Assembly: GCA_009693175.1 (NCBI GenBank)
Contig: SHXT01000004.1
Location: 1-64,000 of the forward strand
DNA from: Candidatus Methylopumilus sp.
GTDB lineage: Bacteria > Pseudomonadota > Gammaproteobacteria > Burkholderiales > Methylophilaceae
Direction: 5' to 3'
DNA length: 64,000 nucleotides
A program made the translations under genes and the position numbers. Below, piece after piece: positions 39,390-46,769 of the stretch; the stretch's first letter is position 1; every line of letters starts with the position of its first letter. Under the pieces are notes generated by a model. That model worked only from the letters and a program-made list of their open reading frames with translations, searched no databases and was not told the origin of the DNA.

Positions 39390-40727
39390 ATGCGAGACGA
39401 CACCAAACCTAAAAAAAAAATATTACTCGCTACAATAGAGAATATTGATCAAGAAGGTAGGGGCGTTACTCATGTTGAAGGTAAAGCTATTTTTGTTGAA
39501 GGCGCCCTTCAGGGAGAGATTGTAGAATGCGAATCCTATGTTAGAAAATCAACATATGAAATTGCTTTTATAAAAAGAGTCATAAAGCAATCTAATTTAA
39601 GAGTCAAACCTAAGTGTGATCACTTTAATCTCTGTGGTGGTTGCTCCATGCAGCATTTCGAATTTCAAGCTCAGATTGCAGCAAAGCAAAGAGTATTTGA
39701 AAATACATTATCGCGCATTGGAAAAGTAAAGCCAGAAACTTTATTGACACCTCTTGCGGGACCTTCCTGGAATTATCGATACAAAGGCCGCTTAAGAGTT
39801 AAGTTCGTTGTTAAGAAAAACAAAGCGCTTGTAGGGTTTAATGAAAAAAGAACGCATTTCATTGCTGATATTTCAAGTTGTGAAGTCCTACCTAAAAATC
39901 TATCTGATATTTTGCCTAAGCTTAAAGACTTAATCACACAGCTTTCAATTAAAGATAAAATTCCTCAAATCGAATTTGCTGCTGATCAAAACCATCTTGT
40001 ATTAGTGTTAAGAATACTAGACGTATTGAATGTTAACGATGAAGCTCTTTTAAACACATTCTCATCTCAACATCCTGTGCAATTTTGGACACAGTCAAAA
40101 GGGCCTGACACTATTAAGCCTTTATCAAAAAAGGATGACGTAAAGCTTTCTTATACTTTAAAAGAATTTGAACTTCAATTTAATTTCATGCCTTATGATT
40201 TTACACAAATCAATCCTTTTATTAATCAGGTTTTAGTTAGAAGGGCTATGAGTCTATTAAAACCTTCTAAAGATGATCAGATTTTTGATTTTTTTTGTGG
40301 CTTAGGAAATTTCACATTACCAATTGCGACATTTGGTGCAAAGGTCACAGGTATTGAAGGTTCGGTATCACTTTTAGAAAGAGCGAAACAATGCCGCGAT
40401 GAAAATCACTTAGACGACCTTGTTGATTATCAATGTATAAATTTATTTGAAATTACTAAAGAATTATTATTAAAATTAGGCAAAGCAAATAAATGGCTTA
40501 TTGATCCGCCAAGAGATGGCGCATTTCAATTACTTCAACTCATTGATGATGAAATTAATCCTTTAGCTATTGTTTATGTATCGTGTAACCCAGCTACTTT
40601 AGCAAGAGATGCTCAAATATTGGTGAATGAGAAAGGTTACAAATTTGATAAAGCTGGTATTGTTAATATGTTTCCACATACATCACATGTCGAATCGGTT
40701 GCCTTATTTTTAAAAACGGAATCTTAA
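39390..40727 (+). CDS. rlmD: 23S rRNA (uracil-1939-C5)-methyltransferase
   Basis: SAM-dependent methyltransferase of 445 residues. A TRAM domain occupies about 8-70, followed by the iron-sulfur cysteines in KCDHFNLCGGCSMQHF (about 75-90). The SAM motif is DFFCGLGNFTLP (about 305-316), and the catalytic cysteine is in YVSCNPATLARD. The four-cysteine cluster and TRAM domain separate RlmD (RumA) from TrmA. Confidence 0.94.
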   Translation: MRDDTKPKKKILLATIENIDQEGRGVTHVEGKAIFVEGALQGEIVECESYVRKSTYEIAFIKRVIKQSNLRVKPKCDHFNLCGGCSMQHFEFQAQIAAKQRVFENTLSRIGKVKPETLLTPLAGPSWNYRYKGRLRVKFVVKKNKALVGFNEKRTHFIADISSCEVLPKNLSDILPKLKDLITQLSIKDKIPQIEFAADQNHLVLVLRILDVLNVNDEALLNTFSSQHPVQFWTQSKGPDTIKPLSKKDDVKLSYTLKEFELQFNFMPYDFTQINPFINQVLVRRAMSLLKPSKDDQIFDFFCGLGNFTLPIATFGAKVTGIEGSVSLLERAKQCRDENHLDDLVDYQCINLFEITKELLLKLGKANKWLIDPPRDGAFQLLQLIDDEINPLAIVYVSCNPATLARDAQILVNEKGYKFDKAGIVNMFPHTSHVESVALFLKTES

Positions 40728-40741
40728 AAAATCATTTAACT

Positions 40742-41224
40742 ATGTATATTAAAATTTCAATCTTAGAACAGAAGCTTTTTTTATATCGCGATGACAATAC
40801 ATTAAAAAGTTCTTTTATTGTGTCTACCGCAGAAAAAGGGGCAGGCCAAAATAAAGGTAGCTTCTGTACACCTTTAGGTCAACATATCGTTCGTGCAAAA
40901 ATTGGTAAAGATTTGCCTATTTATTCTCAATTTGTTGGTAGAAGGCCTGCGGGGAAAATATGGAACCCATCAATGTCAGGATTAAGCTCAAAAGAGGATT
41001 GGATTTTAACTCGCATACTCTGGCTTTCAGGTCTCGAGGTGGGATTTAATCGTTTAGGCGATCAAGATACGATGCAGCGCTTTATATATATTCATGGGAC
41101 TGATGATAAAATTCATTTAGGTAAGCCTACATCGCATGGATGTATTCGCATGGATAATCAAGACATCATAGAGTTATTTGATCAAATTCATATTGGTGAT
41201 CAAGTGTTAATCAGTGAGACTTAA
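40742..41224 (+). CDS. YkuD-family L,D-transpeptidase/carboxypeptidase without signal peptide
   Basis: A 160-residue protein that is essentially one YkuD domain. The catalytic motif is HGTDDKIHLGKPTSHGCIRM (about 120-139), with the nucleophile Cys in SHGCIRM. The N-terminus (MYIKISILEQKLFLYRDD) enters the domain directly with no signal peptide or lipobox, so the enzyme should be cytosolic. Signal-less YkuD proteins such as ElsL and LdcV act as L,D-carboxypeptidases in peptidoglycan recycling. The nearby nagZ is also cytosolic and recycling-related, so this role is a reasonable inference. Confidence 0.88.
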   Translation: MYIKISILEQKLFLYRDDNTLKSSFIVSTAEKGAGQNKGSFCTPLGQHIVRAKIGKDLPIYSQFVGRRPAGKIWNPSMSGLSSKEDWILTRILWLSGLEVGFNRLGDQDTMQRFIYIHGTDDKIHLGKPTSHGCIRMDNQDIIELFDQIHIGDQVLISET

Positions 41225-41232
41225 TATCTTAT

Positions 41233-41931
41233 ATGTATAAAAATCAATACCGATATTACGACCTTGTCATGGCAGCTTTCGTCACAGTATTAATTACTTC
41301 TAATTTAATTGGCCCTGCGAAAATATCCCAAGTAGAGATCCCATTTTTTGGATCCCTTACCTTTGGTGCCGGCGTATTATTTTTCCCCATCTCTTTTATC
41401 TTTGGCGATATCTTAACTGAGGTCTATGGTTACGCTGCTTCAAGAAGAGTGATATGGGCAGGATTTATAGCGCTCGCTTTTGCATCATTCATGGCTTGGA
41501 TGATCGTTGCTCTTCCATCTGCCCCTTTTTGGCACAATCAAGATGCCTATGAAATTGCTTTTGGTTCAGCCTGGAGAGTTTCTTTAGCAAGTTTGATTGC
41601 TTTTGCAGCTGGCGAATTTGTAAATTCCTTTGTATTAGCAAAAATGAAAATTATGACAAAAGGAAAATATTTATGGAGCCGCACTATAGGCTCTACGATT
41701 GCAGGGGAAGCTATTGATTCTATCTTATTCTATCCATTGGCTTTTTATAATAGTGGCGTCATTCCAAATGACAAACTTATACTCGTCGTGTTCGCACAAT
41801 TTTTTGCAAAAACATTGGTAGAGATATTATTTACACCAGTTATTTATAAAATCATTTCTTTTTTAAAGAAAAAAGAAAATCTAGATTATTTCGATATACA
41901 CACTAACTTTAACCCTTTTATTTTTAAATAA
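41233..41931 (+). CDS. yhhQ: Queuosine precursor transporter (YhhQ/VUT family)
   Basis: A 232-residue inner-membrane protein with six transmembrane segments. Family blocks include SNLIGPAKIS near the start, FPISFIFGDILTEVYGYAASRRVIW (about 55-79) and RTIGSTIAGEAIDSILFYPLAF (about 154-175). Homologues import queuosine precursors (preQ0/preQ1) for tRNA modification. No que genes are nearby, so the organism may depend on salvage; that is inference. Confidence 0.9.
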   Translation: MYKNQYRYYDLVMAAFVTVLITSNLIGPAKISQVEIPFFGSLTFGAGVLFFPISFIFGDILTEVYGYAASRRVIWAGFIALAFASFMAWMIVALPSAPFWHNQDAYEIAFGSAWRVSLASLIAFAAGEFVNSFVLAKMKIMTKGKYLWSRTIGSTIAGEAIDSILFYPLAFYNSGVIPNDKLILVVFAQFFAKTLVEILFTPVIYKIISFLKKKENLDYFDIHTNFNPFIFK

Positions 41932-41952
41932 TATGAACAGTATTCAATAAAG

Positions 41953-42972
41953 ATGACAATGGGGCCATTAATGATTGACGTTGAAGGGCTCACTTTAACA
42001 AATGAGGATATCAAAAGAATTCAGCACCCTAAGGTAGGTGGCCTTATTTTATTTACGAGAAACTATCAAGACACTCATCAATTAAAAGCATTAACAGATA
42101 GTATTAGAAATATAAGAGGCCATGACTTCTTGATTGCTGTTGATCACGAAGGTGGACGTGTTCAAAGATTTAGAGATGGCTTTACTACAATTCCTGCAAT
42201 GCGAAAACTAGGTGAAATTTGGGATCAAGATTCTACAAAAGCCAATCACTTGGCTTTTTTAATTGGCCAAATTATTGCAACTGAATTAAGGGTGTTTGAT
42301 ATTGATTTTAGTTTTACACCTGTTTTAGATATTGATTACAGTGAAAGTACAGTGATTCGAGATAGAGCTTTACATGCAAATATTAAAGCTATTAAAGAAT
42401 TAGCAGCCCATCTTTTAGACGGCTTAAAAGAGGGTGGAATGCATGCTGTTGGAAAACACTTTCCCGGACATGGTTATATTAGAGAAGATTCACATTTGAG
42501 CATTTCCGAAGATACAAGAACACTTCATGAGATTGAATCAAAAGATATGAGTATTTTTTTATCACTTATAGAGCATGGGTTAAATGCGCTTATGCCATCT
42601 CATGTACTTTATTCTGCTGCAGATAATCTCCCCGCAGGGTTTTCTAAATTTTGGCTTAAAAATCAATTAAGAGAAAAGTTTAAATTTAAAGGCGCTATTT
42701 TTAGTGATGATATGAGTATGAAGGGCGCTATTTTAGGCAGTGAAATGAAGGATAGGGTTTTAAAGGCGCTAGAAGCTGGATGTGACATGGTTTTGTTATG
42801 TAATAGCCCTCATCTTGTAGATAAAGTGTTGTCTCAATTGAATTGGTCAATATCAAAGGAAAGTCTTGAAAGATTAAGGTCCATGAAAGGCTCTAAAGAT
42901 CCCGCTTTGGCCTTAAAAATGACCCAAGAAAAGGGCTTTAAAGAGATGACGAGCCAAATTATGGCTATGTAA
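41953..42972 (+). CDS. nagZ: Beta-N-acetylhexosaminidase NagZ
   Basis: Cytosolic family 3 glycoside hydrolase that removes GlcNAc from recycled anhydro-muropeptides. The 339 residues include AVDHEGGRVQRFRDGFT, the catalytic-loop motif KHFPGHGYIREDSHLSIS with the conserved His-Asp pair, and the nucleophile aspartate in FSDDMSMKGA. An ATG two codons downstream (41959) is an alternative start. Its neighbour is the cytosolic YkuD enzyme two genes upstream. Confidence 0.94.
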   Translation: MTMGPLMIDVEGLTLTNEDIKRIQHPKVGGLILFTRNYQDTHQLKALTDSIRNIRGHDFLIAVDHEGGRVQRFRDGFTTIPAMRKLGEIWDQDSTKANHLAFLIGQIIATELRVFDIDFSFTPVLDIDYSESTVIRDRALHANIKAIKELAAHLLDGLKEGGMHAVGKHFPGHGYIREDSHLSISEDTRTLHEIESKDMSIFLSLIEHGLNALMPSHVLYSAADNLPAGFSKFWLKNQLREKFKFKGAIFSDDMSMKGAILGSEMKDRVLKALEAGCDMVLLCNSPHLVDKVLSQLNWSISKESLERLRSMKGSKDPALALKMTQEKGFKEMTSQIMAM

Positions 42973-45436: not shown

Positions 45437-45826
45437 TTGGCAACATTAAAACTAACAAAAAAAAATTTTAAAAAAGTAATTGAAGAGAATAATTTTGTCA
45501 TTGTAGATTTTTGGGCTCCATGGTGTGAGCCTTGCGTTGAATTTACTCCTATATTTACAGCTGCTTCAGAAAAATATAAAGATATTGTTTTTGGTATGGT
45601 AGATATTGAAGAAAATCCTGAAATTGGCGAGTACTTTCAAGTAGAAAAAATTCCCGGCCTTCTCGTTATAAGAGAGCAAGCAGGTATTCATACTCAAATT
45701 GGTCAAATAGGAACGCCTGCATTTGATGAAATTATCAAATGGGCTAAAGAGTACGATATGTCAACAGTCCGAGATTATTATGGAAAAGAAGCCAAAGACG
45801 AATTTAAGGTTGCCCAAGGAAAGTAG
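45437..45826 (+). CDS. Thioredoxin-family protein with WCEPC active site
   Basis: A 129-residue cytosolic thioredoxin fold. The active site is WAPWCEPCVEF with Cys30 and Cys33, a Glu replacing the Gly of the canonical WCGPC. The cis-proline region is KIPGLLV and a C-terminal extension of about 25 charged residues follows. The start is TTG at 45437 with an AGGA ribosome binding site at 45427-45430; no ATG precedes the conserved core. The 3' end overlaps the convergent nlpD gene by 23 bases. Confidence 0.88.
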   Translation: MATLKLTKKNFKKVIEENNFVIVDFWAPWCEPCVEFTPIFTAASEKYKDIVFGMVDIEENPEIGEYFQVEKIPGLLVIREQAGIHTQIGQIGTPAFDEIIKWAKEYDMSTVRDYYGKEAKDEFKVAQGK

Positions 45827-46769
45827 TAGGATCTACTGATTGACCTTGTTTCCTGATTTCAAAGTGTAGTTTAATTTTATCGCTCCCAGAATCACCCATC
45901 GTAGCAATTTTCTGACCTTTAGTAATAACCTGGCCTTCTTTAACAAGAAGTTCTTTGTTATGTGCATACACTGATAAATAAGCGTTGTTGTGTTTAATAA
46001 TCACAAGCTTTCCATAGCCTTTAAGATCTTCGCCACTATATATAACCTTGCCTGAAGCTGCAGCTTTAATTTCTTGCCCCGCAATACCAATAATATCAAC
46101 ACCCTTTTGCCCCGCTGATTCATTAAAAAGATTTTCTAGCTTTCCTTTAGCAGGCCATTGCCAATCAACTTTGTCTTCAATTATTGCAACAGGTATATTT
46201 TCTTTTTGACTGGGAGAAGCTACATTTTTTATGGGTTGATTTTGCGAGGGTATTTTACGGTTATAAAGTTCATCGGCATACTTTTCTCTATAAGCTTTAG
46301 GGGTATCAATATTTAAAATATCACCAGGTGTAGGTTTTATTTGTGTTTGAGTATCTGTAATAGTTTCTTCATCCTTTTTTAAAGGAGCAGTTACCACATC
46401 TTCATTCTTTTTAATCTCATTTGAAGTGACGACCGGGTTATTCGTTTTAACTTGGTTAAATTTTATTTTTTCACCTACTTTAATTGTATAAGGTTCTTTA
46501 ATGTCATTAGCTTGAGCCACTTCTTTGTAGTAAAAGCCACAATCTAAGCTGATACTAAAAAGTGTATCTCCTTGCTTCACGACATATACGTCAGGACAAG
46601 GCTGATTAGGATCTCTTTTAACTTTTGCTACGGATTTATTTTTTTGTAAAGAGCTTGATTTGTTATCTGAAGGTAATTTTTTTTCAATAACAGGTGCAGG
46701 CACATTAGATGCGCAGCCTGCAACTAAAGATAGTAAAAAAATGTAAATAATAAGCAAAGTTAATTTCAT
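45804..46769 (-). CDS. nlpD: NlpD-like lipoprotein with LysM and degenerate LytM domains
   Basis: An outer-membrane lipoprotein (LVAGC lipobox, Cys19). A LysM domain occupies about 60-105 ([17 protein letters not shown]) and a LytM/M23 domain about 215-318. The first zinc histidine is replaced (GQKGVDIIG) and the HLHFE motif is KLHFEI, so it is probably a non-enzymatic amidase activator, as E. coli NlpD is for AmiC. The gene starts four bases inside surE. The pcm gene often between surE and nlpD is absent. Confidence 0.92.

Follow-up and report, generated by a model that had tools for sequence, protein, structure and literature searches.

A leaderless YkuD protein encoded near nagZ in a Candidatus Methylopumilus genome is a predicted ElsL-class L,D-carboxypeptidase of cell-wall recycling

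Based on the analysis of the window, a stretch of 64,000 nucleotides from a draft genome of Candidatus Methylopumilus sp. (contig SHXT01000004.1, positions 1 to 64,000), we suggest that the gene at positions 40742–41224 (+ strand) very probably encodes an ElsL-class cytosolic L,D-carboxypeptidase that serves in cell-wall recycling and replaces LdcA; the reaction and the substrate are predictions made from sequence. The proposal draws on the gene content of the genome, the active-site motif of the protein, its missing leader, a search of the genome in which LdcA was not found, a near-exclusive distribution of ElsL-like and Peptidase S66 genes, and repeated linkage to nagZ.

The elsL-like ORF (160 aa) is followed by a yhhQ-like gene for a queuosine-precursor transporter (41233–41931, + strand; 232 aa), which lies between elsL and nagZ and matches TIGR00697 with 105.7 bits (cut-off 50.95). 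Then comes nagZ (41953–42972, + strand; 339 aa), which encodes the beta-N-acetylhexosaminidase of cell-wall recycling and matches PRK05337 with 437.2 bits (cut-off 207; both in the NCBIfam scan). The spacers are 8 bases between elsL and yhhQ and 21 bases between yhhQ and nagZ, and judging by this spacing, the three genes look co-transcribed. Upstream, rlmD ends 14 bases before the elsL start. From the last base of the elsL stop codon to the nagZ start there are 729 bases, and the ORF coordinates thus agree with the distance and the common direction given for NagZ in a preliminary description of this DNA. The host genome has a size of 1.17 Mb, is 97% complete and consists of 35 contigs. A megablast search of the gene run against plasmids gave no match. 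It should also be recorded that tadA is located in the window 2.6 kb downstream of elsL on the opposite strand, and that positions 45804–46769 (− strand) encode a protein with LysM and M23 domains, the top model for which is NlpD (209.8 bits, under the cut-off of 311). The start of this protein was read by eye and is presumably lipoprotein-like.

YkuD (PF03734) is the sole Pfam family in the elsL-like product (78.3 bits, cut-off 23.4, residues 2–157), and no match to an S66 domain was obtained in the Pfam scan. The SHGCIRM motif (residues 131–137; 41132–41152, + strand) includes Cys134, the proposed nucleophile. Across 32 aligned sequences, Ser131, Gly133 and Cys134 are invariant, and His132 is variable, some rows reading SIGC (e.g., Nitrosomonas). 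His118 (IHGT; codon at 41093–41095, + strand) is invariant in the same alignment and is proposed as the active-site histidine, a catalytic role that we assume from what is known of the YkuD family. The active site had been described as intact, and the motif together with His118 bears this out.

The preliminary description also held that the protein has no export signal. A codon scan from the last in-frame stop before the gene to the elsL ATG found none of the start codons ATG, GTG and TTG, which rules out export via an upstream start. In the AlphaFold2 model, built with 32 sequences (pLDDT 90.1), the first strand is formed by residues 2–6. Since there is no upstream start and the first strand begins at residue 2, a signal peptide does not fit, and the protein is leaderless. 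In agreement with this, the highest mean hydropathy over 15 residues in the N-terminal region is 0.76, versus 1.75 for the other YkuD protein of the genome. The alignment of 32 sequences is made up of matched ranges only, and the N-termini of the relatives lie outside its reach.

The ElsL class was published by Dai et al. in 2021 (PMC8649774). The part of that paper available to us defines its members by a YkuD catalytic domain with a conserved cysteine, a length of 105–200 residues, the lack of a signal peptide, transmembrane helix or wall-binding domain, a BLASTp match to A. baumannii ElsL (WP_000077301) with an E value of 1e-4 or better, and removal of D-Ala from disaccharide tetrapeptide but not from pentapeptide (PMC8649774). 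The window protein has 160 aa, one domain, low N-terminal hydropathy and no upstream start. In the NCBIfam scan, which here takes the place of the BLASTp comparison, its top match was NF040925 (LD_carbox_ElsL, an exception-type model of 164 positions) with 151.6 bits and an E value of 1.6e-44 over residues 3–159; the next-best model scored 32.7 bits, and the other YkuD protein of the genome, used as a control, reached 23.5 bits against NF040925. The curated cut-off of this model is 270 bits, and because the score is below it, the protein is assigned to the wider ElsL class, outside the narrow model. Relatives from Alcanivorax (191.6 bits), Thiopseudomonas (164.4 bits), Thiomicrorhabdus (197.5 bits) and Nitrosovibrio (168.6 bits) also fall under this cut-off; the first three are gammaproteobacterial.

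A search for LdcA (Peptidase S66) at E ≤ 10 found none in the window's genome; the same search gave matches in 8 of the 14 control genomes, E. coli included. The other steps of the pathway are encoded. An AmpG-like permease matches TIGR00901 with 490.1 bits (cut-off 350), Mpl matches TIGR01081 with 707.4 bits (cut-off 388.7), and a single leaderless Amidase_2 protein of 187 aa (112.5 bits, cut-off 26) fits AmpD and is provisionally taken as such. With NagZ, all four of the AmpG, NagZ, AmpD and Mpl steps are represented. We suggest the following route. Anhydro-muropeptides, i.e., wall fragments, would come in through AmpG, NagZ would take off GlcNAc, and the AmpD-type amidase would release the peptide. 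The YkuD protein, via Cys134 and His118, would cut the terminal D-Ala from tetrapeptides, after which Mpl would return the tripeptide, and not the tetrapeptide, to UDP-MurNAc. In this way, the peptide-recycling route may be closed on paper for a small-genome, Methylotenera-related lineage in which LdcA was not found. The candidate role in wall recycling proposed earlier is therefore supported at the level of predicted functions, with ElsL as the top named match and AmpG, an AmpD-type amidase and Mpl present.

The distribution of the two enzyme types was assessed in an evenly drawn sample of 150 genomes of the family. An ElsL-like gene was found in 140 of them (106 of the 108 good ones), Mpl exceeded its cut-off in 139, and AmpG was found in 140 at E ≤ 1e-10 and over its cut-off in 136. 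Peptidase S66 was found in 1 of the 150 genomes and in none of the 16 of the window's genus. The check for a classical ldcA proposed in the preliminary description was thus carried out in the genome itself, the genus and the family, with an outcome that favors the recycling role.

The same picture was seen at the level of the order, where a profile search gave an ElsL-like match (E ≤ 1e-20) in 215 of 399 genomes. Peptidase S66 also holds proteins other than recycling LdcA, so the 144 genomes with an S66 match (E ≤ 1e-5) are an upper bound for LdcA. Both were found together in 12 genomes, against 77.6 expected if they were independent; 203 genomes had only the ElsL-like match, 132 only S66, and 52 neither. 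As these genomes are related by descent, a Fisher test on the genomes gives no usable probability, and the fairer measure of exclusion is the count of families with any match (33 with ElsL-like only, 10 with S66 only and 6 with both). Seven of the 12 double genomes belong to one family (f27), in which the ElsL-like gene is matched less strongly (about 1e-47 to 1e-51) than in most of the listed cases (1e-60 and better). Two double genomes have strong ElsL-like matches (9.4e-63 in G421 and 8.4e-69 in G517). The 12 genomes with both and the 52 with neither mean that the exclusion is not absolute; the ElsL-like and S66 genes are near-exclusive in the order. This distribution gives independent support to the published claim that ElsL-class enzymes replace LdcA in many bacteria.

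The neighborhood of elsL was mapped by blastp clusters in 114 loci (L034–L147) and the window. The elsL cluster is present in the window and in 113 of the loci, the one without it being L121. Cluster names outside the window come from profile matches or from by-eye reading of the sequence, and neighbors were counted by start positions, abutting and overlapping ORFs included. The order rlmD-elsL-yhhQ-nagZ-yccA was found in all 8 loci of the window's genus, with which L068 was counted. The family's other genera are represented by 28 loci. All of these have a DppB-like gene that starts no more than 1.2 kb after elsL, and 26 have a DppC-like gene after it. Upstream, the start of a binding-protein gene is found within 3.5 kb of elsL in 25; downstream, yhhQ occurs in 13 and nagZ, within 6 kb, in 22. 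Of the six loci in which nagZ was missed, two (L038 and L055) offer little sequence downstream of elsL. In its fullest form, the order is SBP-elsL-dppB-dppC-yhhQ-nagZ-yccA. The compact pair proposed in the preliminary description is better understood as the short form of a longer run in the sister genera.

Outside the genus, 76 named loci were counted. They come from the best 80 of at least 588 loci, and the fractions hold for close relatives only; L073 and L079, which duplicate L053 and L045, and L121, which has no elsL-cluster ORF, were left out. In 16 of the 76, at least 4 of which carry names of the same family, nagZ follows within 6 kb on the strand of elsL. It stands directly behind elsL in 6 (L070, L090, L110, L125, L132 and L147), and the lineages with this arrangement include Nitrincola, Alcanivorax and Thiopseudomonas. 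In these three, the gene preceding elsL was read by eye and is presumably TetR-like, and nagZ follows at once. A dppB gene is next to elsL in 8 of the 76, Thiomicrorhabdus and Thiomicrospira records included; Thiomicrorhabdus, Nitrincola and Alcanivorax are Gammaproteobacteria. The recurrence of the elsL-nagZ link in lineages with differing surroundings argues for a shared function. Beyond the family, most relatives do not have the link.

With its YkuD fold and motif, the protein might also be an enzyme that cross-links the wall (an L,D-transpeptidase) or anchors lipoproteins and that gets into the periplasm by an unrecognised path, which we regard as highly improbable. In a structure comparison with Foldseek and VIA-align, L,D-transpeptidases came first, and B. 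subtilis YkuD ranked highest (Z 17.9, rmsd 1.5, 109 residues). Carboxypeptidases and transpeptidases are not told apart by this comparison, and Z 17.9 is evidence of fold, not of reaction. A periplasmic enzyme is at odds with a domain that starts at residue 2 and with the absent upstream start codon, and the best model of exported L,D-transpeptidases (LdtA-F type) gave only 32.7 bits against a cut-off of 583. In addition, the sole other YkuD match in the genome, a 417-aa frame (L002:1105-2358, contig G000:C26), has a hydrophobic N-terminus and is possibly an exported cross-linking or anchoring enzyme.

It is likewise improbable that the protein, as a cytosolic L,D-carboxypeptidase, acts mainly on a substrate from outside the AmpG/NagZ route, such as free murein peptides taken up through an ABC importer for peptides, with nagZ placed nearby by chance operon packing. 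Such a reading would account for the permease gene, and not nagZ, standing next after elsL in every one of the 28 loci from the family's other genera. It would also suit the position of tadA, whose start lies no more than 0.8 kb before elsL in 53 of the 76 named loci beyond the genus (among L069–L146; Nitrosomonas, Gallionella and Accumulibacter records included), and the lack of nagZ nearby in most of the 76. However, nagZ recurs near elsL in lineages with different flanking genes, and the genome encodes AmpG, the AmpD-type amidase and Mpl. We therefore prefer an ElsL-class L,D-carboxypeptidase of the AmpG/NagZ recycling route.

In connection with this recycling carboxypeptidase, the permease genes of the sister genera deserve attention. 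The run SBP-elsL-dppB-dppC-(yhhQ)-nagZ was found in loci L035–L056 and L062–L067 of the other genera and is absent at positions 40727–41953 of the window. No ATPase gene was seen in the runs that were read. The binding protein of L044 is a weak match to peptide-type models (DppA, 101.6 bits against a cut-off of 1005), the permease of the same locus matches Opp2B with 358.4 bits (cut-off 350), and the binding protein of L124 matches peptide-binding proteins of known structure (5u4o, DppA). ATPases with an oligo_HPY tail were found in 59 of 60 family genomes. In the window's genome, a peptide-type ABC ATPase pair is located on another contig (L167:1903-3562, G000:C27), with no permease gene within the 6 kb read around it; the gene beside the pair was read by eye and is presumably hisS. 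One DppB-type protein was matched in this genome (E 7.3e-51), and the 15 other genomes of the genus also have one match each. Retention of the elsL-linked permease elsewhere in the window's genome is unsupported, as the DppB-type matches listed for the genus are 38–39% identical. The match in one of these genomes (G044) belongs to a permease set (L157:2889-8626) with a binding protein of 548 aa, a DppB-like and a DppC-like protein. On one side of the set is a gene that matches MltD with 273.2 bits, less than the cut-off of 508; the gene on the other side we take, by eye, to be fabI. The position of this set beside the MltD-like gene may be a further hint of wall-fragment uptake.

These elsL-linked permease genes are candidates for an importer of murein peptides that is associated with the recycling enzymes, its substrate being guessed from the neighboring genes. 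According to the part of PMC9790009 available, the ABC system YejBEF-YepA imports muropeptides in Agrobacterium, which is without AmpG, so such ABC importers can take up muropeptides. The idea that AmpG is absent and that the permease genes are the sole entry is ruled out by the AmpG counts (140 of 150 family genomes). Because AmpG is almost everywhere in the family, the permease system would be an additional route. Tentatively, the family's elsL locus may originally have been a full murein-salvage unit, with a peptide-type binding protein and two permease subunits of the Dpp/Opp kind beside ElsL and NagZ, and a shared ATPase pair encoded elsewhere. It would have imported tetrapeptide-bearing wall fragments alongside AmpG for ElsL and NagZ, and the small-genome genus of the window would have dropped the importer genes here and kept both enzymes. 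We consider this history possible but doubtful. A limited literature search found no report on elsL-linked permease genes. In the sister genera, these genes suggest that wall fragments may enter by a second, testable route.

For the queuosine-precursor transporter between elsL and nagZ, left unexplained in the preliminary description, no link to wall recycling was seen, a role as functional partner of elsL and nagZ has no support, and the gene looks like a neighbor carried along. QueC was not found in the window's genome and is present in 12 of the 16 genomes of the genus, this genome being among the 16. If the gap is real, the transporter may be the sole source of queuosine precursor there; both a switch to uptake and an assembly gap are possible.

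Among the known systems, the closest is Acinetobacter ElsL, a leaderless YkuD protein that, according to Dai et al., cleaves disaccharide tetrapeptide and not pentapeptide, and the phenotype of its deletion is relieved by blocking muropeptide import (PMC8649774). The available part of the same paper gives 101/788 for ElsL orthologues in Betaproteobacteria. The window protein and A. baumannii ElsL are alike in being leaderless, with a single YkuD domain and an active-site cysteine (PMC8649774), and LdcA is missing in both organisms. Unlike A. baumannii elsL, the window gene lies beside nagZ, sister genera have peptide-permease genes at that place, and the activity is predicted. LdcA of the E. 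coli type (Peptidase S66) acts at the same pathway step but is a serine peptidase of another family. Csd6, Pgp2 and Bd1075 of Helicobacter, Campylobacter and Bdellovibrio have the YkuD fold in common with the window protein (Z 14.2–15.1 over 122–128 residues), and their chains are larger (268–316 residues in the entries, against 160 aa here). These three proteins work on the wall outside the cytosol. Csd6 is termed an L,D-carboxypeptidase (PMC4599014, as far as available). The preliminary description had spoken of YkuD enzymes of the ElsL/LdcV type, and its ElsL half is upheld by the NF040925 match; its LdcV half is not, since LdcV of Vibrio cholerae, which carries out the same recycling reaction, is described as a zinc-dependent LAS-family enzyme and not a YkuD protein (PMC8649774). 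The comparison gives good support for regarding the protein as a further example of the ElsL class known since 2021, and not as a new kind of enzyme.
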